Assembly: GCA_029884335.1 (NCBI GenBank)
Contig: JAOUIA010000028.1
Span: 1-43,552 of the forward strand
Reading direction: 5' to 3'
Length of the DNA stretch: 43,552 nucleotides
Source: Betaproteobacteria bacterium
GTDB lineage: Bacteria > Pseudomonadota > Gammaproteobacteria > Burkholderiales > Casimicrobiaceae
In this document: piece after piece, positions 12,218 through 30,300 of the stretch
Position numbering within the stretch: position 1 is the first letter of the stretch
How the letters are laid out: each line of letters starts with the position of its first letter
Translations under genes and position numbers: made by a program
Notes under the pieces: generated by a model
Databases searched by the model: none
The model's input: the letters and a program-made list of their open reading frames with translations, nothing else
Told to the model about the DNA's origin: nothing

Positions 12218-14011
12218 TCACTCTGGCGCGGTCAGCGCGAAGTCGGGCCGCGTGCTCACGCGCGGCGTGCCGTCCGGCAACGCCGCCGCGCACTCGGCGA
12301 ACGCGCGCACGCTGCACTCCCGGCAGGCCGGCGGCGCGAGCCGCGGATAGATCGCCCGCAGCGCGTCGGACTTCGACGCGAACACGCGCTCGGCGCCGAT
12401 CACGTCGATTGCGCCGCTGCGCTGCAGCGCCTCGCGGACAGGATCCTTGAGGTTGCACAGGTAGAGCGCGCCTCCCGCGTCGCGCGCCTCGCGCGCCAGC
12501 TGCGCGAGCAGTTCGGCGCCGGCCACGTCGATGAAGTTCACGCCGCTGCCGACGAGCAGCACGTGGCGCACCTCGGGACGCTCGCGGCGGGCTTCCTCGA
12601 CTTCGTCGCGGACGTGCTCGACGGCCCCGAAGAACAGCGAGCCGTCGACGCGCAGCACGTCGAGCTGGGGGCAGGGCGGCACGGTCGCGCTCACGGCGAC
12701 GAAGCGGCGCGTCGCGGGATCGGGAGCGACGCGCGTCAGCCGGGGATGCGTGGTGCGGTTGAGGTAGACGAGCAGCGAGGCGAGCACGCCGACGAAGATC
12801 GCGAACTCGAGCTGCAGCGTGAGCGTGGCGACGAAGGTGACGACGAGGACGACGGCGTCGCTGCGGCTCGCGCGGAACACGCGGCGAGCCTCGCCGAAGT
12901 CGATCAGCCCCCAGGCGACCACGAACAGCAGCGCGGCCATCACCGAGAGCGGCAGCCACGCGGCGAGCGGCGCCACGACGAGCACCACCAGCGCCAGCGC
13001 GACGGCGGAGAACACCGCCGCCAGCGGCGTCCTCGCCCCGGCCTCGAAGTTGAGGCCGCTGCGGTTGAACGAGCCCGACGACGGGTAGGCCGAGAAGAAA
13101 GCGCCGGCGAGGTTCGACAGCCCCTGCCCGATGAACTCCTGGCTGCCGTCGATGCGCTGGCCAGCCTTGACGCCGATCGCGCGGGCGATGGACACCGCCT
13201 CGGTCAGCCCCAGCACCGTGAGCGCCAGCGCCGCCGGCGCGAGCGCGCGCCACACTTCCGGGTCGAACGATGGCAGCGAGAACGGCGGCAGGCTCGACGG
13301 CAGCGGCCCGACGACGGGGATCGCTTGGCCGGTCAGGCGCACGACGGCCACGCCGAACACGCTGCCGACGACCATCGCGACGATCATGTACGGCACGCGC
13401 GGCAGGAAACGGCGCGCCGCGATCGCCGCGGCGAGCGTCACCGCGCCGGTGGCGGCGACGAGCGGGTCGATGCGCGCCAGCCCGGCGGCGAACTGCTTCA
13501 GCGTGCCGAAGAAGCTGCCGCCCGAGTCGAGCGGCACGCCGAAGAAGTGCCTGAGCTGCGCCGCGATGATGAGCAGCGCCGCGCCGGCGGTGAAGCCGAC
13601 GATCACCGTGTGCGAGATGAAGTTGACCAGCGCGCCCAGCCGCGCCAGCCCCATCGCCAGCTGCAGCGCGCCCACCAGCAGGCACAGCGTCAGCACCAGC
13701 GTGACGTAGGGGCCGCTGCCCGGCACGGCCAGCGGCGCGACCGTCGCGAAGACGACCAGCGAGAGCGCGTTCGTCGGCCCGCTGATCTGGTGCCACGACG
13801 AGCCCCACAGCGCGGCCACGATCGCCGGGACCATCGCGCAGTACAGGCCGTACTGCGGCGGCAGGCCCGCGAGCGTGGCGTAGGCAACACCCTGCGGCAG
13901 CACGACGAGCCCGCCGATGATGCCGGCGAGCGCGTCGGCCTTCAGCGACTCGCGGCCGACGCGGGAGCGCCAGGAGAGAAACGGCAGGAGCTTGTGGGCG
14001 AGCGGGGACAA
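12218..14011 (-). CDS. SulP-family anion transporter with STAS domain (second copy), next to the sulfonate genes
   Basis: Inner-membrane anion transporter of 597 residues. The core begins with ALAGIIGGLVVLPQGVAYATLAGLPPQYGLY, followed by the substrate-site segment SSWHQISGPTNALS. A cytoplasmic STAS domain spans about 460-575 (LDVLRVDGSLFFGAVEHV, then LLVGSGVNFIDVAGAELL). The last 35 residues carry three cysteines (ACRECSVRAFAECAA), unlike the first SulP copy. It lies 98 bases downstream of the phosphotransacetylase gene on the same strand, at the end of the aminotransferase-tauABC-pta run, so it is probably expressed with sulfonate degradation. Because Xsc releases sulfite, export of sulfite or sulfate is a reasonable inference; uptake or bicarbonate transport cannot be excluded. 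Confidence 0.88.
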   Translation of the reverse strand: MSPLAHKLLPFLSWRSRVGRESLKADALAGIIGGLVVLPQGVAYATLAGLPPQYGLYCAMVPAIVAALWGSSWHQISGPTNALSLVVFATVAPLAVPGSGPYVTLVLTLCLLVGALQLAMGLARLGALVNFISHTVIVGFTAGAALLIIAAQLRHFFGVPLDSGGSFFGTLKQFAAGLARIDPLVAATGAVTLAAAIAARRFLPRVPYMIVAMVVGSVFGVAVVRLTGQAIPVVGPLPSSLPPFSLPSFDPEVWRALAPAALALTVLGLTEAVSIARAIGVKAGQRIDGSQEFIGQGLSNLAGAFFSAYPSSGSFNRSGLNFEAGARTPLAAVFSAVALALVVLVVAPLAAWLPLSVMAALLFVVAWGLIDFGEARRVFRASRSDAVVLVVTFVATLTLQLEFAIFVGVLASLLVYLNRTTHPRLTRVAPDPATRRFVAVSATVPPCPQLDVLRVDGSLFFGAVEHVRDEVEEARRERPEVRHVLLVGSGVNFIDVAGAELLAQLAREARDAGGALYLCNLKDPVREALQRSGAIDVIGAERVFASKSDALRAIYPRLAPPACRECSVRAFAECAAALPDGTPRVSTRPDFALTAPE

Positions 14012-14109
14012 GGCGCGGCGCGGTTGAGGCTCAATGATGCGGCGTCCGCGGGCATTCGCGCAAATCGCTCCCCCCGCCGGGCGGCGGCAGGCGCGGCGTC
14101 AGCGGACGG

Positions 14110-15075
14110 TCAGGCGGCGACGGACGCGACGACGGGGCGCGCTTCCGGCGCGGGCGCTTCGCGCAATGCCGCGCTGGCGAGCGAGGCGAGCACGCAGGAC
14201 GCGACGCGCGTCTCGATCGGGTCCTGCAGGCCGGGTACCACGATCGGCACGGCGGCGCCGAGCACCAGGCCGGCGGCCAGCCCGCCGGTGATGCCGGTCA
14301 GCGCGCGCACCAGCATCACGGCCGACTCCATCGTCGGCGCGACGAGCACGTCGGCGCGTCCGGCGACCGCGGAGCGGGTGCCCGCGTGGCGCGCGAACTC
14401 GGGCGACAGCGCGACGTCGGCGGTCATCGGTCCTTCGACCGTGGCGCCGGGAAACGCTCCCTGCGCGGCCATCGACATCAGCGCCGCGGCCTCGCTCGTC
14501 GACGGGAAGGCCGGCGTGATCGTGCCCTTCGCCGCGAGCAGCGCGACGTGCGGCGCGGCGATGCCCAGTGCGTGCGCGAACGCGATCGTGTTGCGCACGA
14601 TGTCCTTCTTCGCGGCGAGGTTCGGCGCCACGTTGAGCATCGCGTCGGTGACGATCAGCGCGCGGTCGTGGCCGGGCAGGTCGAGGAACTGCGCGTAGGA
14701 GAGCCGCCGCGCCGTGCGCAATCCCGAGTCCTGCGCGGCCACGGGCGCCAGCATGGCGTCCAGCGACAGCGCGCCGCGGACCAGCGCGTGCACTTCGCCC
14801 TTGCGGGCGAGCTCAACCGCGCGCTCGGCCGAGCTTTGCGGGTTGTCGTCGGCGTCGACCAGAGGCAGGCGCGTGATGTCGAGCCCGGCGCGGTTCGCCT
14901 CGCTGCGGATGCGCTGCTCGGGTCCGACCAGCGTGGGCGCGAGGTAGCCGGCAAAGGCGCCGGACAGCGCCAGTTGCAGCGAGTCGCGGTCGACGGCGTG
15001 CACGATGGCCGCCGGCAGCGGCGGACGCAGCCGGGTCCGTTCGACCAGCTTCTGCAGGTGCGGCCGGGAGTTCAC
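14110..15075 (-). CDS. pta: Phosphate acetyl/butyryl transferase family, short form (probable acetyl phosphate to acetyl-CoA step)
   Basis: Member of the PTA_PTB family, which moves acyl groups between CoA and phosphate. The 321-residue length fits the single-domain type and lacks the regulatory N-terminal half of long Pta. Visible family landmarks are VGPEQRIR early, LVRGALSLDAMLAPV, RRLSYAQFLDLPG, LIVTDAMLNVAPNL, VEGPMTADVALSPE and the C-terminal DVLVAPTMESAVMLVRALTGITGG. Phosphate butyryltransferase has the same fold, so by sequence alone either acyl group is possible. The position between tauC and a SulP transporter, in a region that also holds xsc, favours conversion of Xsc-derived acetyl phosphate to acetyl-CoA, as known for taurine degraders. 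A 262-base repeat-rich gap separates it from tauC. Confidence 0.78.
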   Translation of the reverse strand: MNSRPHLQKLVERTRLRPPLPAAIVHAVDRDSLQLALSGAFAGYLAPTLVGPEQRIRSEANRAGLDITRLPLVDADDNPQSSAERAVELARKGEVHALVRGALSLDAMLAPVAAQDSGLRTARRLSYAQFLDLPGHDRALIVTDAMLNVAPNLAAKKDIVRNTIAFAHALGIAAPHVALLAAKGTITPAFPSTSEAAALMSMAAQGAFPGATVEGPMTADVALSPEFARHAGTRSAVAGRADVLVAPTMESAVMLVRALTGITGGLAAGLVLGAAVPIVVPGLQDPIETRVASCVLASLASAALREAPAPEARPVVASVAA

Positions 15076-15152
15076 CAGGGGAAGCCTCGCAAGGCGGCCG
15101 GGACGTTGTCAACGATACCCGATGGAAGGGCTTCCTGGGGGGAGGGGCGGAT

Positions 15153-15293
15153 GGGAAATGAGGGTCAGACTCGCATTTCCCGCCAGCAAGCGTCGGAAAT
15201 GAGGGTCAGACTCCCGTTTCCCGTCCCGCGGAGGACTGCACCCGGGGTCGGGAAATGAGGGTCAGGGAAGTGAGGGCCAGACTCCGATTTCCC
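15153..15293. repeat. Four copies of a 27-29 nt palindromic repeat between tauC and pta
   Basis: The 262-base gap between the two genes holds a repeated near-palindrome with core GAGGGTCAGACTC. Copy 1 (15153-15181) has arms GGGAAATG and CATTTCCC around that core and folds over its whole 29 bases with one mismatch and one wobble pair. Copy 2 (15195-15221) is almost the same, with one further wobble pair. Copy 3 (15251-15265) is a left half only, running straight into copy 4 (15266-15293), which has two substitutions (GTGAGGGCCAGACTC). Spacers share GCGGAGGACTG/GCAGAGGACTG. This looks like a REP-type element of the kind mobilised by REP-associated tyrosine transposases; that attribution is inference, and no such transposase is in the window. 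Confidence 0.8.
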
Positions 15294-15337
15294 CGCCCGC
15301 AGAGGACTGGAATCGGCGTCGGCCCCTGATTGCCCGG

Positions 15338-16180
15338 CTACGCCTTGCCCTTCCAAGGGACGACCAGCCGCTCGATGCGGCGCATCAGCAGGTCGAAAAG
15401 GTAGGCGACGGCGCCGATGACCACGATGCCCATGATCACGACGTCGGTGCGCAGGAAGTTCGACGCGTTGAGCACCATCTGCCCCAGCCCGGCGGTGGCC
15501 GCCACCATCTCGGCGGCGACCAGCGTGGTCCAGCCGAATCCGATCGCGATGCGCATGCCGGTGAAGATCTCGGGCATCGCCGCGGGGATGATCACGTGGC
15601 GGATCACCTGCCACTTCGACGCGCCCATCGAGTAGGCGGCGTTGATCTGCTCGATCATCACGCTCTTGACGCCGGCACGCGCGGCCATCGCCAGCGGCGC
15701 GAAGCAGGCGAGGTAGATCAGCACGATCTTCGCCGTCTCCTCGATGCCGAACCAGATCACGATGAGCGGGAGGTAGGCGAGCGGCGGCAGCGGCCGGTAG
15801 AACTCGACGGGCGGGTCGAAGATGCCGCGCCAGACGCGCGAGACGCCCATCGCGATGCCGACCGGGATCGCGGTCACGCACGCGAGCGCGAACGCCGCGA
15901 ACACGCGGATCAGGCTCCACATGAAGTGCTCCCAGAGCGGCTTGCCGCCCTGGATCTCGCCGTTCCACGCCTCGATGAAGCTGGTGAAGATGCGCTCCGG
16001 CTGCGGCAGGAAGATGTCGCGGATCCAGCCGAAGTGCGTGGCGACCCACCACAGCGCGAAGAGCGCGATCACCGTGGCGATGCTGATCGCCACACTCGAG
16101 CCCTCGCCGGGGACGCTGTAGCCGGCCACGCGGCGCGTTCCGGAGTCGGGCGCGGCGTCCCGGGCGTCGGGACCGCTCAC
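15338..16180 (-). CDS. tauC: Taurine/sulfonate ABC transporter permease
   Basis: Inner-membrane permease of the nitrate/sulfonate/taurine ABC importer family, 280 residues with about six transmembrane helices. Helix 1 is [22 protein letters not shown], the periplasmic part [14 protein letters not shown] follows, and the EAA loop that docks onto the ATPase is visible as [32 protein letters not shown]. The terminal helices include [22 protein letters not shown]. The start is GTG at 16180, overlapping the TGA of tauB by four bases (GTGA), which implies translational coupling; sequence upstream of it is only the antisense of tauB. Substrate is assigned from the TauA-like binding protein and nearby xsc; other alkanesulfonates are possible. 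Confidence 0.9.
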
Positions 16181-16977
16181 GCTGCGGCCTCCTCGGCCGC
16201 GGGGGCCGCGTGGATCCGCTGCAGCACCTCCTCGCGCAGCCGGATGAATTCCGGGTCCGACTTCACGGCGCGCGCGTCGCTGCACTCGACGAAGCGGCGG
16301 CCGAAGTCGAGCCGGTAGCGGTGCGCGATGCGTCCCGGCGAAGGCGTCATCACGATCAGCTCGGTGGCGAGGAAGAGCGCCTCCTCGACGCTGTGCGTGA
16401 TGAAGAAGAACATCTTGCGGGTGTCCCACCACAGCCGGAGGATCAGCTCCTGGATCTGCTCGCGGGTGAGCGCGTCCAGCGCGCCCAGCGGCTCGTCCAT
16501 CAGCATCACCTCGGGGTCGCTCGCGAGCGCGCGCGCGAGGCCCACGCGCTGCTGCATGCCGCCGGAGATCTCGTAGATCGGGTGGTCGGCGAACTTCGCG
16601 AGCCCCACCTGCGCCAGCTTGTCGAGCGCCGTGCGCCGCCGCGCCGCGCGGTCGACGCCGCGCATGCGCAGGCCGAACTCGACGTTCTCGACCACCGACA
16701 GCCACGGCATGAGCGCGTGCTTCTGGAAGACGACGCCACGTTCGGCCCCCGGGCCGTCGACGCGCCTGCCGTCGAGCACGATCTCCCCCGACGAGTACGG
16801 CATGAAGCCGGCGATGCAGGAGAGCAGCGTCGTCTTGCCGCAGCCGGACGCGCCCAGCGCGACGACGAAGTCGCCGGGGTCGAGGGCGAGGTCGACGTGC
16901 GCGAGCGCGTGCGTGCCGGGCCTGCCGCGGGCGTCCGCGTAGTGGACAGAGAGGTCGCGGACTTCGAGCTTGCTCAT
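16177..16977 (-). CDS. tauB: Taurine/sulfonate ABC transporter ATP-binding protein
   Basis: Cytoplasmic ATPase driving the importer, 266 residues. Walker A is GASGCGKTT, the Q loop is [12 protein letters not shown], the signature is [15 protein letters not shown], Walker B is [13 protein letters not shown] and the switch histidine is in [15 protein letters not shown]; this form is typical of TauB/SsuB/NrtD proteins. The frame stays open upstream through repeat DNA, but the family start [15 protein letters not shown] corresponds to ATG 16977. No good Shine-Dalgarno sequence precedes it: the palindromic repeats begin within about eight bases of the start codon. It is separated from tauA by 190 bases of repeats and overlaps tauC by four bases. 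Confidence 0.93.
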
Positions 16978-16984
16978 GCGCGCG

Positions 16985-17114
16985 GGAATGACGCTGGATC
17001 CCCGCTTGCGCGGGGATGACGAAGACCCGTGGCGTCGCCCCCGCGAAGGCGGGGGCCCAGTGTCGTTTTCACGAAGCCCAAAGCCGCTGGATCCCCGCTT
17101 GCGCGGGGATGACG
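16985..17114. repeat. REP/BIME-like inverted repeat cluster between tauA and tauB
   Basis: Two direct copies of a 29-base unit beginning GCTGGATCCCCGCTTGCGCG (16993-17021 and 17086-17114), each with the hairpin ATCCCCGC-TTGC-GCGGGGAT. Between them, in the opposite sense, is the hairpin GCCCCCGC-GAAG-GCGGGGGC followed by CCAGTGTCG. The alternating orientation is the BIME pattern. A related element with GTCATTCCCGCGCAGGCGGG lies at 38.27-38.51 kb. The rest of the 190-base gap is the palindrome listed next. Confidence 0.8.
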
Positions 17115-17170
17115 CATCCACACTCCATTTCCCGGCCCGCTCGCGGGCCGGGAAACGGGTGGATGCGTCA
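17110..17170. promoter_or_regulatory. 61-bp two-tier palindrome including the tauA stop codon
   Basis: The inner stem is a perfect 13-bp inverted repeat with a 2-base loop: TTTCCCGGCCCGC (17128-17140), TC, GCGGGCCGGGAAA (17143-17155). The outer arms are a perfect 12-bp inverted repeat, TGACGCATCCAC (17110-17121) and GTGGATGCGTCA (17159-17170). The last three bases of the right arm are the complement of the tauA TGA. In the tauABC transcript this would form one long, very stable hairpin right after the first cistron. No U-tract follows on the minus strand, so a classical intrinsic terminator is unlikely; RNA stabilisation or dosage control between tauA and tauBC is the likelier role. Confidence 0.75.
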
Positions 17171-18178
17171 CTTGGCCACGGCCTGCGCGTAGGCCGGGTT
17201 GACGGCCACCGAGTAGTCGGGCAGCGCCTTCTCGATCTGCTTCTGCGACAGCTGGAACGCGGCGGTGGCGCCGAGCGCCTTCGCGGCCAGCGAGTCCTTG
17301 CCGCCGCCGAGCCACTTCGTCGACTGCTCCTTCGCCGTGGGGAACGCGTACAGCGCCATGCTGGCCGGCACGTCCTCGGGCTTGGCGCCCGACCACTTCG
17401 CGATCGCCTTCGCCTCGGCCGAGTCCTTCGTGAACTTCGCCTTGTTCTTGCGGTAGTTGTCGTCGGCGGCGGCGAGGATCTGCACGAACTTGACCATGAA
17501 GTCCTTGTTCGCCTTCGCCCAGTCGCGGTTGGCCACGTAGCCGTCGAACGTCGCCTTGCCGGTGTCCGCCGAGATCTTGCCCGACGTCGTGATGACCACG
17601 CCGTCCTTCTTCGTCTCGGCGAGCACCGGGTCCCAGATGAACGTCGCGTCGATGTCGCCGCGCTGCCACGCCGCGCGCACCTCGGGCGGGCGCATGTTGA
17701 GGATCTGCACGTCGGCCGGGTTCACCTTCGCCTGCTCGAGCGCGACCATCGTGTGGAAGTGCGTCGTCGAGTTGAACGGCATCGCGATCTTCTTGCCCTT
17801 GAGGTCGGCGACGGTCTTGATGCCGGAGGTCTTCTTCGCCACCAGCGCCTCGGCGGCGCCGATGTCGTCGAGGATCCAGAAGAGCTCGAGGGGCTCGCCG
17901 CGCGACACTGCGGCGGCGATGCCCGCGGAGCCGACCTCGCCGAGCTGCACCGCGCCCGAGGCCATCGCCTTGATCACCTCGCCGCCGCCGCCGAACTGCT
18001 TCCAGTTGATCTTGTAGCCGGTCGCCTTCTCGAGCTCCTTGGCTTCCTGCGCGACGCGGTAGGGCACCACCATGTCCTGGTAGGCGATCGTCACTTCCTT
18101 GGTCTGCGCGAGCGCCGCCGAGAGCGGCAGGGCGGTCGCGAGAACTGCGAGCGAGGCAAGTGCGGTGCGGCGTTTCAT
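17168..18178 (-). CDS. tauA: Taurine ABC transporter periplasmic binding protein
   Basis: Periplasmic taurine/sulfonate receptor of 336 residues. A Sec signal peptide is clear ([20 protein letters not shown], then AALAQ before TKEVTIAYQ). The mature part follows E. coli TauA closely in layout: [86 protein letters not shown]. The SBP-family STTH and [10 protein letters not shown] motifs point to taurine or a close C2 sulfonate rather than nitrate. It lies 36 bases after the aminotransferase gene on the same strand and is followed by the long palindrome before tauB, which could let the receptor be made in excess of the membrane components. Confidence 0.92.
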
Positions 18179-18214
18179 CGGTCTCCCCCTGTGCGGTGTT
18201 TGGTGCGGCCGGCG

Positions 18215-19558
18215 CTACAGCGCCTTCAGCGTGCGGCGCAGGATGTCGGCGATCATGTCGACGTGCTCGCGCGTCGCGACGAGCGGCGGGGCGACGATCG
18301 CCGCGTCGCCGGTCGCCTTGAGGTGCAGGCCGTTGTCGAACAGCTTCTTCTGGAACGCGTGGCCGCGCTTGCCCGGCACGCCGTCCGGATGGACCTCGAT
18401 CGCCGCGAGCATCCCGTACCCGCGGATGTCTGCGACCACGCCGATGTCGCGCAGCGCGAAGATCGCGTCGAGGAAGTACGGTGACAGCGCCGCCCCGCGC
18501 TCGAACAGGCCCTCGTCGCGGTAGATGTCGAGCGTGGCGAGCCCCGCCGCGCAGGCGGCCGGGTGCCCCGAGTACGTGTAGCCGTGGAACAGCTCGATCG
18601 CCCCCTCGGCGGCGGCGGCGAAGATCGTGTCGTGGATGCGCTCGGAGACGGCGACCGCTCCCATCGGCTGCGCGCCGTTGGTGAGGCCCTTCGCCATCGT
18701 CATGATGTCCGGCGTCACGCCGAAGCTCTGCGCGGCGAAGGCCGGCCCGGTGCGGCCGAAGCCGCAGATCACCTCGTCGAACACCAGCAGGATGCCGTGC
18801 GCGTCGCAGATCTCGCGCAGGCGCTTGAGGTACCCCTTCGGCGGCACCAGGCAGCCTGTGGAGCCGGCGATCGGCTCGACGAAGCACGCGGCGATGTTCT
18901 CGGCGCCGTGGAGGTTGACGAAGCGCACGAGGTCCTCGGCCAGCTCGGCGCCGTGCTCGCCCTCGCCAGGCTGGAAGAGGTTCTCCTTCAGGTGCGTGTG
19001 GCGCATGTGCACGATGCCGGGCAGCGTCGGCCCGAACCGGCGCCGGTTGTTGACCAGGCCCGCGAGCGACACGCCGCCGAAGTTGACGCCGTGGTAGGCG
19101 CGCTCGCGCGACACGAACATCGTGCGGCCGCCCTGGCCCTTCGCCTGCCAGTAGGCGAGCGCAATCTTCATCGCCGAGTCGACCGCCTCGGAGCCGGAGT
19201 TGACGAAGAAGATGCGGTTGAGGTCGCCCGGCGTCAGCGCGGCGACGCGCGTGGCGAGCTCGAACTGCCCGGGATGCCCGCGCGTGAACGGCGCGATGAA
19301 GTCGAGCTCCGCGAGCTGGCGGCCCACGGCCTCGGCGATCTCGCGGCGGCCGTGCCCGGCGTTGACGCAGAACAGCCCCGAGGAGGCGTCGATCAGTCGC
19401 TCGCCGCGGTCGTTCCACAGCCAGACGCCCTCGGCGCGCACGACCATCTTCGGCTCGCGGCGGAAGTCGCGGTTGGGCGTGAACGGCATCCAGTACTCGT
19501 CGAGCGACAGCGGTGCCGCTGACGGCCGGTCGGCGAGCTCGAATTCGGCGTGACCCAT
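18215..19558 (-). CDS. Class III omega-amino acid (probably taurine)--pyruvate aminotransferase
   Basis: PLP-dependent class III aminotransferase of 447 residues. The opening LSLDEYWMPFTPNRDFRREP is typical of beta-alanine/omega-amino acid:pyruvate aminotransferases. Motifs seen: NSGSEAVDSAMKIA for cofactor phosphate binding, AYHGVNFGG, the PLP-ring aspartate D261 in LLVFDEVICGFGRTG, and the Schiff-base lysine K290 in MTMAKGLTNGA. I chose ATG 19558, since the frame further upstream is not protein-like. In this setting, first gene of the tauABC run and divergent from ald and xsc, it most likely moves the amino group of taurine to pyruvate, giving sulfoacetaldehyde and alanine (the Tpa role). 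Its sequence is closer in feel to the beta-alanine enzymes than to Bilophila Tpa, so hypotaurine or beta-alanine remain possible substrates. Confidence 0.87.
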   Translation of the reverse strand: MGHAEFELADRPSAAPLSLDEYWMPFTPNRDFRREPKMVVRAEGVWLWNDRGERLIDASSGLFCVNAGHGRREIAEAVGRQLAELDFIAPFTRGHPGQFELATRVAALTPGDLNRIFFVNSGSEAVDSAMKIALAYWQAKGQGGRTMFVSRERAYHGVNFGGVSLAGLVNNRRRFGPTLPGIVHMRHTHLKENLFQPGEGEHGAELAEDLVRFVNLHGAENIAACFVEPIAGSTGCLVPPKGYLKRLREICDAHGILLVFDEVICGFGRTGPAFAAQSFGVTPDIMTMAKGLTNGAQPMGAVAVSERIHDTIFAAAAEGAIELFHGYTYSGHPAACAAGLATLDIYRDEGLFERGAALSPYFLDAIFALRDIGVVADIRGYGMLAAIEVHPDGVPGKRGHAFQKKLFDNGLHLKATGDAAIVAPPLVATREHVDMIADILRRTLKAL

Positions 19559-19614
19559 GAGGGGCTCCAGTCGGGCGCAGGCGACCGTCGCGCGGCCGCC
19601 GATGCGGGGTGCCC

Positions 19615-19620
19615 ATGCTA
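19615..19620 (-). promoter_or_regulatory. Candidate -10 element for the aminotransferase-tauABC transcript
   Basis: On the minus strand TAGCAT followed by GGGCAC, 57 bases before the aminotransferase start. It fits the -10 plus GC-rich discriminator pattern of the window, but no convincing -35 is present. The 184-base divergent region up to the CBS gene otherwise holds only GC-rich sequence, with a possible TTGACG (19677-19682) facing the CBS gene. Confidence 0.3.
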
Positions 19621-19742
19621 CACCCGCGACGCCGCGGCGCGCAGCCGGCGGCCCGGCCGGGTTCGGGGCGCGCGGCTTGACGGCCGGCCCCGGCCGGGTG
19701 CGAAATGGCGGGCCGTCCGCGGGTTCGCCAGGGAGGCCAGCC

Positions 19743-20168
19743 ATGCCCATCCGGTCGCTGCGCAGCATCGCCGAGAGCCAGGAGCCGACGCTGTTTTCCG
19801 CAACCACGCCGGTCAGCGAGGTGGCGCGCAGAATGCGCGAGCGCCAGGTGAGCGCGGCGATGGTCGTGGCCGGCTCGCGGCTGGCCGGCATCTTCACCGA
19901 GCGCGACGCACTGTTCCGCGTGCTCGCGGCCGACCGCGACCCCCGCACGACGCCGGTCGGCGAGGTGATGACGCGCGACCCGCAGACGATCAGTCCCGAG
20001 CGCCCGTTCGTCGACGCGCTGCGCATGATGCACGACGGGCGCTTCCGGCACGTGCCTATCGTCGAGGACGGGCGGCCGATCGGGCTGGTGTCGGTGCGCG
20101 AGGCGCTGCACGCCGACTTCACCGACCTCGTCGACATCCTCGCGACGCGGGAGATGGTGCGCGACTAG
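19743..20168 (+). CDS. Two-CBS-domain (CBS pair) protein
   Basis: Small cytoplasmic protein of 141 residues made of one CBS pair and nothing else. The first CBS motif is about residues 18-60 (TTPVSEVARRMRERQVSAAMVV, then GIFTERDALFRV) and the second about 78-130 (EVMTRDPQTISPERPFVDALRM, then RHVPIVEDGRPIGLVSVREAL). Such modules bind adenine nucleotides, S-adenosylmethionine or similar ligands and regulate partners. The start ATG 19743 follows GGGAGG eight bases upstream. It is the first plus-strand gene opposite the aminotransferase-tau genes, with ald 330 bases further on, so it may sense nucleotide status for this pathway; nothing in the sequence proves that. Stand-alone CBS pairs are common and mostly uncharacterised. 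Confidence 0.87.
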   Translation: MPIRSLRSIAESQEPTLFSATTPVSEVARRMRERQVSAAMVVAGSRLAGIFTERDALFRVLAADRDPRTTPVGEVMTRDPQTISPERPFVDALRMMHDGRFRHVPIVEDGRPIGLVSVREALHADFTDLVDILATREMVRD

Positions 20169-20169
20169 C

Positions 20170-20443
20170 CGCCCCCTAACCCGGCCCCTCTCCCCGCTGC
20201 GCGGGGAGAGGGGAGTGTTCGGTACCTCTCCCCGTTGCGCGGGGAGAGGGGAGTGTTCGGTACCTCTCCCCGTTGCGCGGGAGAGGGGGTGCCCGGCGCC
20301 TCCGCCCGCTGCGCAGAGGGGGAGTGCCCGGCGCCTCCGCCCGCTGCGCAGAGGGGGAGTGCTCGGCCCCCCTCTCCCGCCGGCAGGCGGGAGAGGGGCG
20401 GGGGTGAGGGGAGGGGGTGAGGGGAGGGGGTGAGGGGAGGGAG
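20170..20443. repeat. Tandem hairpin array ending in a G-rich 13-bp tandem repeat, before ald
   Basis: This fills nearly all of the 327-base gap between the CBS gene and ald. It starts CCCCCTAACCCGGCCCCTCT. Three 38-base units begin at 20188, 20226 and 20264, each with CTCTCCCCG-(C/T)TGCG-CGGGGAGAG or a slightly shortened version, then GTGTTCGG. Two 35-base diverged units with CTCCGCCCGCTGCGCAGAGG begin near 20297 and 20332, and then comes a hairpin CCCCTCTCCCGC-CGGCAG-GCGGGAGAGGGG. The end is three copies of TGAGGGGAGGGGG (20405-20443, the last imperfect), giving at least eight runs of three or more G on the plus strand. The building block is the same as in the metG insertion. Confidence 0.85.
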
Positions 20444-20495
20444 CGAGGGCGGCGTGCTACCGTAGGCGTCGTTTTCGCAACGACGGAGGCGTCGC

Positions 20496-21611
20496 GTGCG
20501 CATCGGCGTTCCCAGGGAGATCAAGGTGCTCGAGAACCGGGTCGGGCTCGTCCCCGGCTCGGTGCGCGAGCTCGTCGCGAACGGCCACGAGGTGCTCGTC
20601 GAGCACAACGCCGGCCAGGGCATCGGCATGGACGACGCGGCCTACGAGCGGGCGGGCGCGCGCGTCCTCGCGTCGGCCGCCGAGGTGTTCGCCGCGGCCG
20701 AGATGATCGTCAAGGTGAAGGAGCCCCAGGCCGCGGAGCGGCGCATGCTGCGCCCCGGCCAGGTGCTGTTCACCTACCTGCACTTGGCGCCCGACCCCGA
20801 GCAGGCCGCGGACCTCGTCGCCGGCGGCGCGGTGTGCATCGCCTACGAGACCGTGACCTCGCCGCAGGGCGGGCTGCCGCTGCTCGCGCCGATGTCGGAA
20901 GTGGCCGGACGCATGGCCGTGCAGGCCGGCGCCTACTACCTCGAGAAGCCCCACGGGGGCCTCGGCGTGCTTCTCGGCGGCGTGCCCGGCGTGGACCCCG
21001 CGAAGGTCGTCGTGCTCGGCGGCGGCGTGGTCGGGACGCACGCGATCGACATCGCGCTCGGCATGGGCGCGGACGTCTGGGTCCTGGACCGCAGCGTCGA
21101 CGTGCTGCGCCGGCTGTGGACGCAGTTCGGACGGCCGCTCAACACTGTGTTCTCCACGCGCGACGCGATCGAGCGCCACGTGGCCGCGGCCGACCTCGTG
21201 ATCGGGGGCGTGCTGATCCCCGGCGCCGCCGCGCCCCGGCTCGTCTCCCGCGAACTGGTGTCGCGCATGAAGCCGGGCTCGGTGGTCGTCGACGTCGCGA
21301 TCGACCAGGGCGGCTGCTTCGAGACCTCGCGGCCGACGACGCACGCCGACCCGGTGTACGTCGTCGACGGCGTCACGCACTACTGCGTGGCGAACATGCC
21401 GGGGGGCGTGCCCCGCACGTCGACGTTCGCGCTCAACAACGCGACGCTGCCGTTCGTGCTGGCGCTCGCCGGCAAGGGCTGGAAGCGCGCGCTCGCCGAC
21501 GATTCCCACCTGCGCGAAGGGCTCAACGTGGCGTTCGGCAAGGTCACGTGCGCGCCGGTGGCGCAGGCGCTCGGCTACGCGCACGTTCCCGCCGCGTCGC
21601 TGCTCGCGTAG
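20496..21611 (+). CDS. ald: Alanine dehydrogenase
   Basis: NAD-dependent enzyme that interconverts alanine and pyruvate plus ammonium. The 371-residue length is standard. Catalytic residues fall at the canonical numbers: R15, K75 (in VKVKEP) and H96 (in TYLHL), with D270 (in VVVDVAID). The NAD-binding loop is [13 protein letters not shown] at 171-183 and D198 follows at the ribose position. The start is GTG at 20496, preceded by GGAGG about eight bases upstream. In taurine degraders Ald regenerates pyruvate, the amino acceptor for the taurine aminotransferase, and releases ammonium; placement 55 bases upstream-side of a GMC oxidoreductase and then xsc supports that role. The G-rich repeat array ends about 50 bases before its start codon. 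Confidence 0.96.
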
Positions 21612-21622
21612 GCACGTCGTCG

Positions 21623-23233
21623 ATGGCGCCGGCCCCGTCGTTCGACTACGTGGTCGTCGGCGCCGGCACGGCCGGCTGCGTGCTCGCGGCGCGGCTGTCC
21701 GAGGGCGGGACGCACAGCGTGCTGCTGCTCGAGGCGGGGCCGGAGGACAACTACGTCTGGATCCACGTGCCCATCGGGTACGGGAAGACGATGTTCCACC
21801 CGGTCTACAACTGGGGCTTCTACACGGAGCCCGAGCCCACGATGAACGGCCGCAAGGTGTACTGGCCGCGCGGCAAGGGGCTGGGCGGCTGCTCGTCGAT
21901 CAACGGCCTCATCTACATCCGCGGGCAGCCGCAGGACTACGACGGCTGGGCGGCGCAGGGCAACGCCGGGTGGGCGTGGCGCGACGTGCTGCCGTACTTC
22001 CGCAAGCTGGAGAGCAACGAGCGCGGGGCGAGCGAACTGCACGGCGCCGACGGGCCGCTCGCCGCGTCCGACATCCCGCGCAAGCACGAGCTGATCGAGG
22101 CGATCGGCGCCGGCGCGGGGGAGCTCGGCATTGAGCGCAACCCCGACTTCAACGGCGAGCGCCAGGAAGGCTTCGGCTACTACCAGCTCAACACGCGCGG
22201 CGGCTGGCGCTCGTCGACCGCGACCGGCTACCTCAAGCCCGCGCGAGCGCGCGCCAACCTCGCGGTCGCCGTGAACGCGCAGGCGACGCGCGTGCTGCTC
22301 GACGGCCGGCGCGCGACCGGCGTCGAGTACCGCCAGGGCGGCGAAACGAAGACCGCGACTGCGCGGCGCGAGGTGCTGCTCGCGGCGGGCGCGCTGCAGA
22401 GCCCGCAGCTGCTGCAGCTCTCCGGGATAGGGCCGGGGCCGGCGCTGCAGCGGCTCGGCATTCCCGTCGTCGCCGACCTGCCGGGTGTCGGCGAGAACCT
22501 GCAGGACCACCTGCAGCTGCGGCTGATCTACAAGTGCCGCAAGGCCATCACGACCAACGACGACCTCAATTCGTGGTGGCGCTCGGCGAAGATCGGGTTG
22601 CAGTGGCTGCTGTTCCGCAGCGGCCCGCTGGCGATAGGCATCAACCAGGGCGGCATGTTCGCGACGGTGCTGCCCGACTCGCGCACGCCCGACGTCCAGT
22701 TCCACTTCGCCACGCTCTCCGCCGACATGGCGGGCGCCAAGGTGCACCCGTTCTCGGGCTTCACGTTCTCGGTCTGCCAGCTGCGTCCCTCGTCGCGCGG
22801 CCGCGTGACGCTCGCCTCGCCCGACCCGCTCGCGGCACCCCTGATGCACGCGAACTACCTCGCCACCGACCTCGACCGGCGCTGCGCGCTGGCCGGCGTC
22901 AGGCTCGCGCGGCGCCTCGCGGGCACGCGGGCGATGCAGCCGTACGTCGAGTCGGAGTACCGCCCGGGGCCCGCAGCGGCGAGCGACGACGACCTCATCG
23001 AGTTCTGCCGCAACTGGGGCGCGACGATCTTCCACCCGGTCGGCACCTGCGCGATGGGCGGCGACGCGCAGGCAGTGGTCGACGCTCGCCTGCGGGTCCG
23101 CGGCGTCGCAGGGCTGCGTGTCGTCGACTGCTCGGTGATGCCCACGATACCGTCGGGGAACACCGCCGCCCCCGTGGTGATGGTTGCCGAGAAGGCGGGC
23201 GACCTGATCCGCGAGGATGCCCGGGCGGGGTGA
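21623..23233 (+). CDS. GMC-family FAD oxidoreductase, candidate isethionate (sulfo-alcohol) dehydrogenase
   Basis: Flavoprotein of the glucose-methanol-choline family, 536 residues, oxidising an alcohol to an aldehyde. The FAD-binding GxGxxG is at 13-18 (YVVVGAGTAGC). GMC signature 1 is present as WPRGKGLGGCSSINGLIYIRG, signature 2 as GALQSPQLLQLSGIGP, and the C-terminal catalytic His-containing region as NWGATIFHPVGTCAMGG, followed by DCSVMPTIPSGNTAAPVVMVAEKAGDLI. Overall it resembles choline dehydrogenase-like proteins. ATG 21623 lies 11 bases after the ald stop codon, and xsc starts 64 bases after its own stop, so the three are probably one operon. That setting suggests the aldehyde product is sulfoacetaldehyde and the substrate isethionate. 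This is an inference: choline, another sulfo-alcohol or an unrelated alcohol cannot be excluded by sequence. Confidence 0.88.
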   Translation: MAPAPSFDYVVVGAGTAGCVLAARLSEGGTHSVLLLEAGPEDNYVWIHVPIGYGKTMFHPVYNWGFYTEPEPTMNGRKVYWPRGKGLGGCSSINGLIYIRGQPQDYDGWAAQGNAGWAWRDVLPYFRKLESNERGASELHGADGPLAASDIPRKHELIEAIGAGAGELGIERNPDFNGERQEGFGYYQLNTRGGWRSSTATGYLKPARARANLAVAVNAQATRVLLDGRRATGVEYRQGGETKTATARREVLLAAGALQSPQLLQLSGIGPGPALQRLGIPVVADLPGVGENLQDHLQLRLIYKCRKAITTNDDLNSWWRSAKIGLQWLLFRSGPLAIGINQGGMFATVLPDSRTPDVQFHFATLSADMAGAKVHPFSGFTFSVCQLRPSSRGRVTLASPDPLAAPLMHANYLATDLDRRCALAGVRLARRLAGTRAMQPYVESEYRPGPAAASDDDLIEFCRNWGATIFHPVGTCAMGGDAQAVVDARLRVRGVAGLRVVDCSVMPTIPSGNTAAPVVMVAEKAGDLIREDARAG

Positions 23234-23297
23234 GGGGCGGCCTTGCGCCGGCGCGCGTGCCGGCGGAACATCACGGATTCGCGAGGAGGTGCAGGCC

Positions 23298-25091
23298 ATG
23301 AACAGGACCGTCGAAGTAGCGCGAGCCGTGACCGGCCGCCAGCAGATGACGCCCTCGGAGGCGTTCGTGGAGACGCTGGTCGCCAACGGCGTGCGCGACG
23401 TGTTCGGCATTGTCGGCTCGGCGTACATGGACGCGCTCGACCTCTTCCCGCTCGCCGGGATCCGGTTCATCTCGGTCGCCCACGAGCAGGGCGGCGGGCA
23501 CATGGCCGACGGCTACGCGCGCGTGTCGGGCCGCCACGGCGTGTGCATTGCGCAGAACGGCCCCGGCATCACGAACTTCGTCACCTCGACCGCCGCGGCG
23601 TTCTGGGCGCACTCGCCCGTGGTCGTGGTCACGCCGGAGACCGGCAGCGCGACGATCGGGCTGGGCGGCTTCCAGGAGACCGACCAGCTGCCGCTCTTCT
23701 CGAGGATCACCAAGTACCAGGCGCACGTGAACAACCGCGCGCGCATGGCCGAGCTCACCGGCCGCGCGTTCGACCGCGCGATGCTCGAGATGGGCCCCGC
23801 GCAGCTCAACATCCCGCGCGACTTCTTCTACGGCGACATCGAGTGCGAGATCCCGTCGCCGATCGTCGTCGAGCGCGGCGCCGGCGGCGAGCGCAGCCTC
23901 GACGAGGCGGCGGCGCTGCTCGCGCAGGCGCAGTTCCCGGTCATCCTCGCCGGCGGCGGCGTGGTCATGGCGGACGGGCAGCGCGAGGCGATCGCGCTGG
24001 CGGAGCTGTTGCAGGCGCCCGTGGCGCAGAGCTACCTGCACAACGACGCGTTCCCGGCCTCGCACCCGCTGTGGGTGGGGCCGCTCGGCTACCAGGGCAG
24101 CAAGGCGGCGATGAAGCTCGTGAGCCAGGCGGACGTCGTGCTGGCGCTGGGCACGCGTCTCGGGCCGTTCGGCACGCTGCCGCAGCACGGCCTCGACTAC
24201 TGGCCGAAGCAGGCGAAGGTGATCCAGGTCGACGCCGACGCTCGGATGCTGGGGCTCGTCAAGCCGATCGCGGTGGGCGTCTGCGGCGACGCGCGAGCCG
24301 CCGCGGCCGCGCTGCGCGCGCGACTCGACGGACGCGCACTTGCCTGCGCGGCGAATCGCGACGAGCGGCTGGCCCGCGTGCGCGCCGAGAAGGCGGCGTG
24401 GGAGGCCGAGCTTGACGGCTGGATGCACGAGAAGGACGCGTGGTCGGTCGAGGTGTCGAAGTCGAGCAGCCACATGCACCCGCGCCAGATGCTGCGCGAG
24501 CTCGAGCGCGCGATGCCGAAGGACGCCATGGTCTCGACCGACATCGGCAACATCTGCTCGGTGTCGAACAGCTACCTGCGCTTCGAGCAGCCGCGCTCGA
24601 TGTTCGCGGCGATGAGCTTCGGCAACTGCGGCTACGCGTTCCCGACCATCGTCGGCGCGAAGGTCGCCGCACCCGACCGCCCGGCGATCGCCTACGTCGG
24701 CGACGGCGCGTGGGGCATGAGCTTCGGCGAGCTGCAGACCTGCGTGCGCGAGGAGATCCCCGTGACCGCGGTCGTGTTCAACAACGGCCAGTGGGGCGCC
24801 GAGAAGAAGAACCACGTCGACTTCTACGCCAACCGCTTCGTGGGCGTGAACCTCGACCGCCAGCCGTCGTGGGCCGCGGTGGCGAAGGCGATGGGCGCCG
24901 AGGGGCTGCGGGTGGAGAAGCTGGCGGACGTCGGGCCGGCGCTGCGCGCGGCGGCGGCCGCGCAGCGCGAGGGCAAGACGACGGTGCTGGAGATGATGGT
25001 CACGCGCGAGCTGGGCGACCCGTTCCGGCGCGACGCGCTGGCGCCTCCGACGCGGCACCTCGCGAAGTACCGGTCGACGGCCGCGCGCTAG
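23298..25091 (+). CDS. xsc: Sulfoacetaldehyde acetyltransferase
   Basis: Thiamine-diphosphate enzyme that converts sulfoacetaldehyde plus phosphate to acetyl phosphate and sulfite, the key desulfonation step for taurine and isethionate. The 597 residues have the three ThDP-enzyme domains: the catalytic glutamate E63 (SVAHEQGGGHMADGYAR), the central domain, and the cofactor motif GDG at 468-470 ending in NN at 495-496. Xsc-specific stretches are AQNGPGITNFVTS, TIGLGGFQETDQ and VVFNNGQWGAEKKN, which set it apart from acetolactate synthase and glyoxylate carboligase. The start ATG 23298 follows a strong GAGGAGGT seven bases upstream; the open frame before it overlaps the GMC gene and is not real. 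Its TAG overlaps the stop of the convergent cytochrome gene. Confidence 0.95.
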   Translation: MNRTVEVARAVTGRQQMTPSEAFVETLVANGVRDVFGIVGSAYMDALDLFPLAGIRFISVAHEQGGGHMADGYARVSGRHGVCIAQNGPGITNFVTSTAAAFWAHSPVVVVTPETGSATIGLGGFQETDQLPLFSRITKYQAHVNNRARMAELTGRAFDRAMLEMGPAQLNIPRDFFYGDIECEIPSPIVVERGAGGERSLDEAAALLAQAQFPVILAGGGVVMADGQREAIALAELLQAPVAQSYLHNDAFPASHPLWVGPLGYQGSKAAMKLVSQADVVLALGTRLGPFGTLPQHGLDYWPKQAKVIQVDADARMLGLVKPIAVGVCGDARAAAAALRARLDGRALACAANRDERLARVRAEKAAWEAELDGWMHEKDAWSVEVSKSSSHMHPRQMLRELERAMPKDAMVSTDIGNICSVSNSYLRFEQPRSMFAAMSFGNCGYAFPTIVGAKVAAPDRPAIAYVGDGAWGMSFGELQTCVREEIPVTAVVFNNGQWGAEKKNHVDFYANRFVGVNLDRQPSWAAVAKAMGAEGLRVEKLADVGPALRAAAAAQREGKTTVLEMMVTRELGDPFRRDALAPPTRHLAKYRSTAAR

Positions 25092-25645
25092 CTTGACCTG
25101 CGCCGCCGCATGCGCGCGAGCGTGCCGTCGCGCAGCGCGCAGTGGTGCCAGCCCGCCGCAGCGACGTGCAGCGCGGCCAGCGCCACCAGCAGCCACGCGA
25201 GTGTCTCGTGCACTTCGGCGAGGCGCTTCGCCAAGTTCTTGTCGGCGGCCATGAGGTCGGGACCCTTCACACCGAAGAACACCACGCCGAAGCCGTTCGC
25301 ATCCACCATTGCGTATCCGACGACCGGCACGGCGACCATGAGCGCGTAAAGCGCGAAGTGCGCGAGGGCGGCCGCGAGCCGCTGCCAGCCGTGCCCCGTC
25401 GCCACGGGGGCGACGTTCACCAGCCGCCATGCGATGCGCACGGCGACCAGACCCAGGACCGCAAGGCCGACCGACTCGTGCGCGTCGAAGGCGAAAGCGC
25501 GCAGCGCGGTCCTGCGCGGCAGCTCCTCGAGCACCGAGCCGCCGGCGATCTGCGAGAAGACGAGCGCGGCGACGGACCAGTGCAGCGCGCGGGCGGCGCT
25601 GCCATAACGCTCCGCAGTGTTCCGGAGTCCCATGGTCGCCTTCAC
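25088..25645 (-). CDS. cybB: Cytochrome b561-type diheme membrane protein
   Basis: Inner-membrane cytochrome of the bacterial b561 family, 185 residues and four transmembrane helices, carrying electrons from quinol or to a partner. Heme-binding histidines can be placed in RALHWSVAALVFS (helix 1), FDAHESVGLAVLGL (helix 2), and VHETLAWLLVALAALHVAAAGWHH (loop to helix 4). The start is GTG at 25645, with an in-frame ATG at 25633 as alternative. Its TAG stop shares the sequence CTAG (25088-25091) with the stop of convergent xsc. It is alone on the minus strand, with a possible FNR-type site 48 bases upstream. It might accept electrons from a membrane dehydrogenase, but nothing specific ties it to the GMC enzyme. 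Confidence 0.9.
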   Translation of the reverse strand: MKATMGLRNTAERYGSAARALHWSVAALVFSQIAGGSVLEELPRRTALRAFAFDAHESVGLAVLGLVAVRIAWRLVNVAPVATGHGWQRLAAALAHFALYALMVAVPVVGYAMVDANGFGVVFFGVKGPDLMAADKNLAKRLAEVHETLAWLLVALAALHVAAAGWHHCALRDGTLARMRRRRSS

Positions 25646-25818: not shown

Positions 25819-26814
25819 ATGCGCGCTGTCCAGGCCGTCCTCGCCGTACTCGCGTCGGCGCTCTGCGCGGCCGCGTCCGCCCAGGGCGCGCTCGTCAAGA
25901 TCGACGGCTCTTCGACCGTCTACCCCGTGACCGAGGCCGTGGCCGAAGACTTCCAGAAGGCCGAACGCAACGCCATCCGGGTCACTGTCGGCATTTCCGG
26001 CACCGGCGGCGGCTTCAAGAAGCTCTGCCGGGGAGAGATCGACATCAGCGGCGCGTCGCGGCCCATCCTCAAGCCTGAAATGGCCGACTGCGCCAAGGCG
26101 GGGATCGACTACTACGAGCTCCCCGTCGCCTTCGACGCGCTCACCGTCGTGGTCAATCCGAAGAACTCGTTCCTCGACAAGGGCGTCAGCGTCGAGCAGC
26201 TGAAGAAGCTCTGGGAGCCGGGCGCGCAGGGCAAGGTGACGAGGTGGAACCAGGTTGACCCGTCGTGGCCCGACGCGCCGATCAAGCTGTTCGGCGCGGG
26301 CGCGGACTCCGGGACGTTCGACTACTTCACCGAGGCGATCGTCGGCAAGGCGAAGTCCTCGCGCGGCGACTACACGGCCTCCGAGGACGACAACGTGCTG
26401 GTGCAGGGCGTGCAGCGCGACGTGAACGCGATCGGCTACTTCGGCTTCGCCTATTACGCCGAGAACCAGGGCAAGCTGAAGGCCGTGCCGATCGTCGAGA
26501 AGGCCGGCAAGCCCGCCGTCAAGCCGTCGATGGAGACCGTGCTCAACGGCAGCTACCAGCCGCTCGCCCGGCCGATCTTCATCTACGTGAACGCGAAGTC
26601 GCTCGAGCGCGCCGAGGTGAGGAAGTTCGTCGAGTACTACATGACGCACGGCGCGAAGCTCGCGAAGGAGGTGAAGTACGTGCCGCTGCCCGACAAGGCC
26701 TACGCCCTCAACCGCGAGCACCTCGCCAAGGGCAAGAAGGGCACGGTGTTCGGCGGCGTTCCCGAGGTCGGAGTGCGCATCGAGGACCTGCTCGCCCGCG
26801 AAGCGAAGCTCTGA
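25819..26814 (+). CDS. pstS: Phosphate ABC transporter periplasmic binding protein
   Basis: High-affinity phosphate receptor, 331 residues. The signal peptide is MRAVQAVLAVLASALCAAAS with cleavage expected near ASAQG. The mature protein starts with the phosphate-loop motif KIDGSSTVYPVTEAVAEDF, and other ligand loops are SGTGGGFKKLCRGEIDISGASRP and GADSGTFDYFTEAI. It belongs to the longer PstS/SphX-like type with a C-terminal AYALNREHLAKG region. ATG 25819 lies downstream of a Pho box, and it is the first gene of pstSCAB-phoU-phoBR. A 31-base gap with a small GCCGT/ACGGC stem separates it from pstC, which may help keep pstS expression higher than the membrane genes. Confidence 0.95.
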   Translation: MRAVQAVLAVLASALCAAASAQGALVKIDGSSTVYPVTEAVAEDFQKAERNAIRVTVGISGTGGGFKKLCRGEIDISGASRPILKPEMADCAKAGIDYYELPVAFDALTVVVNPKNSFLDKGVSVEQLKKLWEPGAQGKVTRWNQVDPSWPDAPIKLFGAGADSGTFDYFTEAIVGKAKSSRGDYTASEDDNVLVQGVQRDVNAIGYFGFAYYAENQGKLKAVPIVEKAGKPAVKPSMETVLNGSYQPLARPIFIYVNAKSLERAEVRKFVEYYMTHGAKLAKEVKYVPLPDKAYALNREHLAKGKKGTVFGGVPEVGVRIEDLLAREAKL

Positions 26815-26845
26815 TGCGGCCGTCGCGCGCACGGCGGGGCCTATA

Positions 26846-27790: not shown

Positions 27791-27791
27791 C

Positions 27792-28721
27792 ATGACTTAC
27801 GTCGCGCAGACCCCGGAGCAGATCCGCGGACTGATCGCCAAGGCCAAGCGCCGGGACGTCGCCTTCGTCGCGCTCGGCGTCGTCGCGCTCGGCATCGGCT
27901 TCGCGACGTTCGTCGCGCTCTTCGTCGACATGCTGATCGACGGCTGGGCGCGCCTGTCGCCGGAGTTCTTCGCCCAGTTCCCGTCGCGTCGGGCGGGGCA
28001 GGCGGGCATCCTCTCGGCGTGGGTCGGCACGACGCTGGTGATGATCGTCACCGCGGCGGTCGCCGTGCCGCTCGGCGTCGCGGCCGGCATCTACCTCGAG
28101 GAGTACGCGCCGAAGCACTGGGTGACCGACCTCATCGAGATCAACATCACGAACCTGGCCGGCGTCCCGTCGATCGTCTACGGGCTGCTCGCGCTGGGCC
28201 TGTTCGTCTATGCGTTCGGCCTCGGCCAGAGCATCCGGACGGCCGGGCTCACGCTGGCGCTGCTGATCCTGCCGGTCGTGATCGTCGCCACGCGCGAGGC
28301 GATCCGCGCGATCCCCGGCGTGATCCGCGAGGGCGCCTACGCGGTGGGCGCGACGAAGTGGCAGACGGTCCGCGACCACATCGTTCCGTACTCGATGCCG
28401 GGCATCCTGACCGGCGTGATCATCGGCATGTCGCGCGCGATCGGCGAGACCGCGCCGATCATCACCATCGGCGCGCTGACGTTCATCGCCTTCCTGCCCC
28501 CGGCGCCGGTGACGGGCGACTTCCCGTTCCTCTCGTTCGAGTGGCTGAAGGCGCCCTTCACCGTCATGCCGATCCAGATGTTCAACTGGACGAGCCGGCC
28601 CGACGAGGCGTTCCACGCCAACGCCGCGGCCGCCGGCACGATCCTCGTGTTCATGACGCTCACGATGAACGCGCTGGCGATCTGGCTGCGCTACCGCCTG
28701 CGCAAGCACATCAAGTGGTGA
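27792..28721 (+). CDS. pstA: Phosphate ABC transporter permease PstA
   Basis: Second membrane subunit of the Pst importer, 309 residues. Features seen are a first helix [23 protein letters not shown], the permease core with [17 protein letters not shown] and [21 protein letters not shown], the EAA loop [29 protein letters not shown], and the terminal helices ending in the basic tail [13 protein letters not shown] 27792 is one base past the pstC TGA, so the two are tightly coupled. pstB starts five bases after its stop codon. The pairing with PstC, and differences from PstC in the loop between helices 5 and 6 ([16 protein letters not shown]), make the assignment secure. Confidence 0.95.
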
Positions 28722-28726
28722 CCCCG

Positions 28727-29575: not shown

Positions 29576-29591
29576 CCGGGGAGAGCGAGCC

Positions 29592-30299: not shown

Positions 30300-30300
30300 C

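Follow-up and report, generated by a model that had tools for sequence, protein, structure and literature searches.

A probable Xsc-centred locus for taurine and isethionate catabolism in a betaproteobacterium with sulfur-oxidation genes

The contig JAOUIA010000028.1 of a Betaproteobacteria bacterium (assembly GCA_029884335.1, family Casimicrobiaceae) carries xsc, the gene for sulfoacetaldehyde acetyltransferase, in unusual company, and the question is whether this gene complement marks an unusual pathway or an ordinary one in a changed layout. The original prediction, made from the letters of this contig, had placed xsc, ald, a taurine-type aminotransferase, tauABC and pta in one region, together with a GMC oxidoreductase, a SulP transporter and a stand-alone CBS-pair protein as unusual additions. 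We conclude that the region is very probably an Xsc-centred C2-sulfonate catabolic locus, for taurine and isethionate, in a betaproteobacterium with sulfur-oxidation genes. The pathway itself is ordinary and its layout reduced, with two branches; most of the oddities are explained by the loci of relatives.

The window, that is, the whole stretch analysed, is the entire contig (43,552 nucleotides) and belongs to a 3.66-Mb assembly of 120 contigs, 95.6% complete. Gene identities were taken from Pfam and NCBIfam profile scores compared with the model cut-offs. The search for Xsc covered 64 genomes of the family and gave a homologue of at least 71% identity in 46, some of them fragments, namely the window's own and 45 others. 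The xsc loci of 35 same-family relatives, 16 of the window's genus and 19 from elsewhere in the family, were fetched and mapped, 5 of them being extended; G001, G002, G008, G020, G026, G027, G028, G031, G052 and G063, with short contigs or fragments, were omitted. Neighbourhood counts were taken from tblastn maps of these loci after removal of rows with less than 40% query coverage in one search, or less than 30% in the other maps. The named loci L039-L118 (the best 80 of 585) overlap partly with the family loci and were kept out of the counts, and the plasmid comparisons draw on the best 30 of 550 GMC rows and the best 40 of 167 xsc rows.

Gene order and the taurine route

Every gene named in the original prediction was located, with coding-like composition and family matches (Table 1), and the predicted arrangement as two divergent runs, split at the gap between the aminotransferase and CBS starts, was confirmed. 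Outward from this point the minus run reads aminotransferase, TauA, TauB, TauC, Pta, SulP, and the plus run CBS pair, alanine dehydrogenase, GMC flavoprotein, Xsc. The encoded genes match the known route that had been proposed for them, from taurine through sulfoacetaldehyde to acetyl phosphate plus sulfite and then acetyl-CoA. With reaction assignments taken from the protein families and published pathways, TauABC would import taurine, and an AptA-type aminotransferase would transaminate it with pyruvate to sulfoacetaldehyde, while alanine dehydrogenase would recycle the alanine to pyruvate with release of ammonium. Xsc would then convert sulfoacetaldehyde into acetyl phosphate and sulfite, and Pta would convert acetyl phosphate into acetyl-CoA. 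TauA passes its taurine-type model and finds its best solved-structure match in the taurine-binding protein 6ssy (E 1.3e-51); the stricter PRK11480 is failed (217 bits against 490), and TauB lies slightly under its own cut-off.

Table 1. Position, strand and supporting matches of the genes of the locus
Feature	Coordinates	Strand	Basis
SulP-family anion transporter with STAS domain	12218..14011	-	PF00916 and STAS; TIGR00815 404 bits, cut-off 380
Pta-type phosphate acetyltransferase (PTA_PTB, PRK08190-like)	14110..15075	-	Pfam/NCBIfam
TauC-type ABC permease	15338..16180	-	PF00528; GTG start
TauB-type ABC ATPase	16177..16977	-	best NCBIfam PRK11248 taurine ATPase, 344 bits, cut-off 357
TauA-type substrate-binding protein	17168..18178	-	TIGR01729 335 bits, cut-off 304
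Class-III omega-aminotransferase, AptA type, in Tpa's place	18215..19558	-	NF052567 604 bits, cut-off 500
Divergence point of the two runs, 184 bp	19559..19742		between aminotransferase and CBS starts
Stand-alone CBS-pair protein	19743..20168	+	PF00571
Alanine dehydrogenase	20496..21611	+	TIGR00518 502, cut-off 392
GMC flavoprotein, probable isethionate dehydrogenase (IseJ type)	21623..23233	+	PF00732, PF05199; context in relatives; tree
Xsc, sulfoacetaldehyde acetyltransferase	23298..25091	+	TIGR03457 951 bits, cut-off 676, full length

The published Tpa/Ald/Xsc/Pta systems with TauABC and TauR (PMC5320631, PMC6453916, as far as their available parts describe them) have in common with the window the import genes, transamination with pyruvate recycling, Xsc and Pta. 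The window differs from them in its AptA-type aminotransferase, in the lack of TauR, in a CBS gene occupying the TauR slot and in sulfite oxidation encoded elsewhere in the genome.

Closer comparison is offered by G045, the nearest relative, which shares the orders TauC-Pta-SulP and Tpa-CBS-Ald-GMC around xsc and whose tau run ends TauC-Pta-SulP-LDC, as in the window except for a substrate-binding gene (at about 10319-11335 of the window) that has no counterpart at that place in G045. The stretch from 15.3 to 26.0 kb is collinear with G045 except for two large differences. One is an IclR segment, the GMC-Xsc spacing being 933 bp in G045 and 64 in the window; the other is soeABC, which follows xsc in G045, with 4.8 kb between the aligned blocks compared with 11 bp in the window. 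Smaller gap differences occur too, such as palindromic repeats before ald. In G024 and G030, of another genus, SulP-Pta-TauCBA-Tpa diverges from Ald-Xsc without GMC, and in G062, of the window's genus, the order is LDC, Pta, TauCBA, Tpa, TauR, Ald, IclR, TRAP, GMC, IclR, Xsc. Several pieces of such loci are missing from the window, namely a MocR gene, an IclR gene preceding xsc, the TRAP genes and a local soeABC set. What the window carries is a reduced version of a more complete locus found in its genus, as in G062.

Beyond xsc, a cytochrome b561 gene at 25088-25645 on the minus strand overlaps the xsc stop with its own, the two genes being separated by soeABC in G045. Directly after it, 25819-32345 holds a phosphate-uptake type block (PstS-type binding protein, two permeases, ABC ATPase, PhoU, response regulator and PhoR-type kinase), and Pst genes lie near xsc in G044, G045 and G062 too. 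In one further relative (L126, G046:C92, 18488 bases) the order resembles a circular permutation, with TauB at one end and LDC plus SulP at the other, perhaps as an effect of assembly.

The GMC flavoprotein and isethionate

A homologue of the GMC flavoprotein (68-75% identity) lies near xsc in 7 of the 35 relatives, all 7 among the 16 of the window's genus and none among the 19 from elsewhere in the family. In five of these seven loci an IclR gene stands between GMC and xsc, and four have genes of a TRAP transporter on the far side of GMC; pSymA of S. meliloti shows the order IclR-GMC-MFS-xsc, and the five plasmid records closest to the window GMC among the best 30 of 550 all carry xsc, 12-21 kb off. 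The isethionate genes of Ruegeria pomeroyi are given as iseR-iseMLK-iseJ (iseR, iseM, iseL, iseK and iseJ) in the available part of PMC4334477. Isethionate degradation by IseJ and Xsc, as outlined in the parts of PMC4334477 and PMC6453916 at hand, has in common with the window a GMC-family flavoprotein linked to xsc, and with the window's relatives the IclR and TRAP genes as well; the window itself differs from the Ruegeria arrangement in having neither. Since the relatives of this GMC protein beside xsc carry IclR and TRAP genes, the make-up of an IseJ locus, Xsc is probably supplied from two substrates here. The GMC flavoprotein, by this analogy probably an isethionate dehydrogenase of IseJ type, a role that the original prediction did not name, would oxidise isethionate to the same sulfoacetaldehyde that the taurine branch yields. 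Taurine and isethionate as substrates, and uptake of the latter, are what we infer for this locus; within the window no dedicated isethionate importer was identified.

Several observations weigh against an isethionate branch. The IseJ-type label, a probable one, comes from gene context and not from comparison with a studied IseJ, and 28 of the 35 relatives have no GMC gene near xsc. The protein just passes PRK02106, a general choline-dehydrogenase subfamily model (618 bits, cut-off 605), and its closest solved structure is an oxygen-dependent choline dehydrogenase. It has no TRAP orthologue next to it, and DctM is matched in the genome at best by pieces of 46-49% identity on contig C56. It is 75% identical to its G045 counterpart, while Xsc is 92% identical. 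A tree built from 24 GMC rows linked to xsc places the window protein in a group of nine with weak support (83/95), from the same genus and other Burkholderiales, separate from a group at 52-53%, and the G045 counterpart joins the rows of G050, G051, G053 and G062 instead. Because the window and G045 proteins do not group, GMC may have been replaced in the window's line.

It might be asked, then, whether the locus serves taurine only, with a GMC enzyme that acts on another alcohol and adjoins xsc by history. The breadth of the GMC family and the two choline-dehydrogenase matches would suit such a reading, as would the position of the window GMC, which adjoins xsc without the IclR and transporter genes that are seen beside it in relatives only. 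We nevertheless consider it unlikely, since the BetA choline dehydrogenase equivalog TIGR01810 is failed (515 bits against 732), by which BetA itself is ruled out, and since GMC relatives are repeatedly linked to xsc, to IclR and to TRAP or MFS genes, including the xsc linkage on the five closest plasmid records. In the paper collection searched, none joined isethionate and xsc to choline dehydrogenase.

The two-substrate reading is accompanied in the family by what is probably a third way into Xsc. In 17 of the 35 relatives (L135-L145 and others) xsc is followed by genes for an aldehyde dehydrogenase and an AMP-ligase, 16 of the 17 also having a TctC-type binding protein, and these are probably sulfoacetate loci of the sauST kind with a TTT-type importer. 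They share the Xsc hub with the sauST-type genes and TTT transporter described in the available part of PMC12625764; the window carries no such genes.

SulP and the oxidation of sulfite

SulP, at 55% identity or more, lies near xsc in 8 of the 35 relatives and follows the tau run in seven of them (G024, G030, G045, G047, G056, G057 and G060), being apart from it in G046. Two cases count against a link between SulP and the tau genes: G062 has tauABC without an adjoining SulP gene, and G054 has only a 29% homologue further away. A chance co-location of GMC and SulP was ruled out, the arrangement recurring in relatives. SulP proteins are anion porters, and that of the window is a plausible sulfate porter through which sulfate might exit, an outward direction being presumed. 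A SulP protein was proposed as a possible sulfate exporter in the taurine degrader of PMC10356861, in the part of that paper available. Import of a sulfonate such as isethionate by SulP, in place of sulfate export, would agree with the anion-porter family and would supply a GMC gene that has no TRAP importer next to it. Such a role is distinctly improbable, given that the GMC-free genomes G024, G030, G056 and G057 keep SulP beside the tau run and that export is what the accessible text of PMC10356861 proposes. A second SulP-family protein is encoded at 749-2488 on the minus strand; it is closest to DauA and lies under both the sulP and the DauA cut-offs.

For the sulfite released by Xsc, the original prediction had noted the lack of a sulfite dehydrogenase, which is true of the region and not of the genome. 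No SorA-type sulfite oxidase (PF00174) was matched in the genome. Contig C60 carries a SoeA-like protein, a 4Fe-4S subunit, a DmsC-like anchor, Sat and AprA; an AprB-like frame, named by reading only, adjoins aprA. Directly before that frame (L170, 13379-14413 on the minus strand) lies a membrane-protein-like frame, by reading only a possible electron carrier for Apr. DsrA, DsrB, DsrE, DsrF, DsrC, DsrK and DsrO score above cut-off on contig C58, and a DsrP-like protein below; dsrEFH without dsrD marks the oxidative type in the available part of PMC12625764, and here DsrE and DsrF were the members looked for, both being found. With the SoeABC-like set, Sat and AprA on C60 and DsrAB on C58, a true absence of sulfite oxidation was rejected. 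The SoeA-like protein has no curated SoeA model among its matches, the best NCBIfam match, PhsA, being far under cut-off; the set as a whole (Mo catalytic subunit, 4Fe-4S subunit and DmsC-like anchor), linked to sulfur and sulfonate genes, is a predicted sulfite dehydrogenase. Sulfite would be oxidised by these enzymes coded elsewhere, SoeABC-like and/or Apr-Sat. The predicted lack of a TauE exporter likewise stands for the region, whereas four TauE-family matches occur elsewhere in the genome, in a family also matched in 14 of 14 control genomes.

In the family, the SoeA-like protein (E up to 1e-100) occurs in 36 of the 64 genomes, and in 5 of the 35 loci its gene is at most 12 kb from xsc. 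On plasmids, a homologue and xsc are no more than 10 kb apart in at least 10 of 13 records. AprA above cut-off was found in 20 of the 64 genomes, 17 with an Xsc homologue and three without (G049, G058 and G059). Because AprA above cut-off is missing from 29 (G045 included) of the 46 genomes in which an Xsc homologue occurs, and three AprA genomes lack Xsc, AprA is not a fixed partner of xsc; G022 has xsc and AprA with no taurine genes in the visible flanks. A taurine route together with AprAB-Sat is already published, since PMC10356861, in the part available, describes a sponge symbiont that has Tpa-Xsc alongside AprAB-Sat, a combination it considers infrequent among taurine degraders and largely confined to symbionts. 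As described there, that organism, 'Ca. Taurinisymbion ianthellae', has in common with ours, per genome, tauABC, an aminotransferase, xsc, Ald, Pta, AprA, Sat and SulP; ours differs in its betaproteobacterial family, in the SoeABC-like genes beside Sat and AprA, in DsrAB and in the isethionate branch.

Regulators, the aminotransferase and the place of the locus in the family

The predicted absence of a TauR-type regulator is real, locally and genome-wide: no TauR orthologue was found in the window or in the 95.6% complete genome, the best match being 30% and covering the aminotransferase part only. No IclR orthologue was found in either (best match 30%, against 45-51% for same-genus orthologues with the same query), and the genes recognised from 12.2 to 25.6 kb include no known transcription factor. 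The idea that the window's gaps contain remnants of TauR, IclR or SoeA was rejected, all matches there having E 0.1 or worse. The TauR consensus CTGGACYTAA, with up to one mismatch, gave no match in the window against 0.63 expected by chance, weak evidence on the joint control of the two runs that the original prediction had suggested as possible; the CTGGAC half-site was not found in the divergence gap, and an alignment of aminotransferase upstream regions from nine loci revealed no shared operator, similarity being limited to the window-G045 pair and subsets.

Of the 35 relatives, 25 have an IclR gene upstream of xsc, with its midpoint at 0.4-2.2 kb, and four more have a TauR-type MocR gene in the vicinity of xsc. 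Six have neither; three of these are cut off within 0.9 kb upstream (L125, L128 and L134), and three retain the flank (L129, L130 and L153), belong to one genus other than the window's and have no CBS gene either. As the IclR gene is common in the family, we read its absence here as a probable loss. In three same-genus relatives (G056, G057 and G062) the MocR gene stands between the aminotransferase and alanine dehydrogenase genes, in the slot held by CBS in the window and G045. The CBS gene has a homologue in 2 of 35 relatives, in the same place in G045 alone (72%), and it matches no NCBIfam model above cut-off. The neighbourhood comparison therefore bears out in part a partnership of GMC and SulP with xsc and fails for CBS; GMC and SulP are no longer unusual additions, and CBS remains one. 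The notable oddities that remain are the missing dedicated regulator and a CBS gene in the regulator slot of relatives.

One might suppose that the CBS-pair protein now controls the locus by responding to an adenine nucleotide and affecting either transcription or SulP, as it occupies the place of the MocR gene, is retained in G045 and has no competing regulator candidate in the locus. This we regard as very unlikely: no DNA-binding domain was matched, a single relative keeps the position, the protein is less conserved than its neighbours, palindromic repeats separate its gene from ald, and the three flanked relatives of another genus do without both regulators and without CBS. In the paper collection searched, none joined a CBS domain to taurine and xsc. 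The repeats (20180-20398) consist of a 38-bp unit that bears a palindrome and is present about 5.9 times in tandem; the 87-bp CBS-ald gap of G045 lacks them. They could terminate or weaken transcription coming from the CBS side.

The aminotransferase beside the gap had been called taurine-type, and this holds for its position, in the place of Tpa. Orthology to classical Tpa was not found, the enzyme being 31-32% identical to the xsc-linked aminotransferases of Pseudomonas sp. SJZ079 (L112) and Marinobacterium profundum (L115) and passing instead the AptA omega-aminotransferase model. AptA-type enzymes accept beta-alanine as well, a further point against a taurine branch. That it serves beta-alanine or another omega-amino acid, in a locus mainly for isethionate or sulfur scavenging, would fit the AptA-type score and the best solved matches, which are beta-alanine and omega-amino acid:pyruvate transaminases, and is yet exceedingly improbable, as the gene shares its run with a TauA above the taurine equivalog cut-off, similar aminotransferases lie near xsc in several loci, and replacement of Tpa by an omega-amino acid aminotransferase is described in the available part of PMC12625764.

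For the organism, a tentative and rather doubtful extension is that organosulfonates serve as organic and inorganic fuel at once, with carbon gained through Xsc and Pta, sulfite oxidised through SoeABC and Apr-Sat, and ATP made at Sat; regulators of the TauR and IclR types would be gone and control taken over otherwise, possibly by CBS or a sulfur-oxidation circuit. The missing regulators are still notable, as is the taurine route in one genome with AprA-Sat and Soe-like sulfite oxidation, the Apr-Sat version being called infrequent in taurine degraders where PMC10356861 treats it. For the family, Xsc appears as a hub, an idea already published (PMC6453916, in its available part), of which the feeding branches (taurine, probably isethionate, and probably sulfoacetate in sister loci) and the regulators are exchanged within one family. 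G062, G045 and the window, with their differing regulator contents, would form a natural series for following how such a locus is controlled after the loss of its own regulator.

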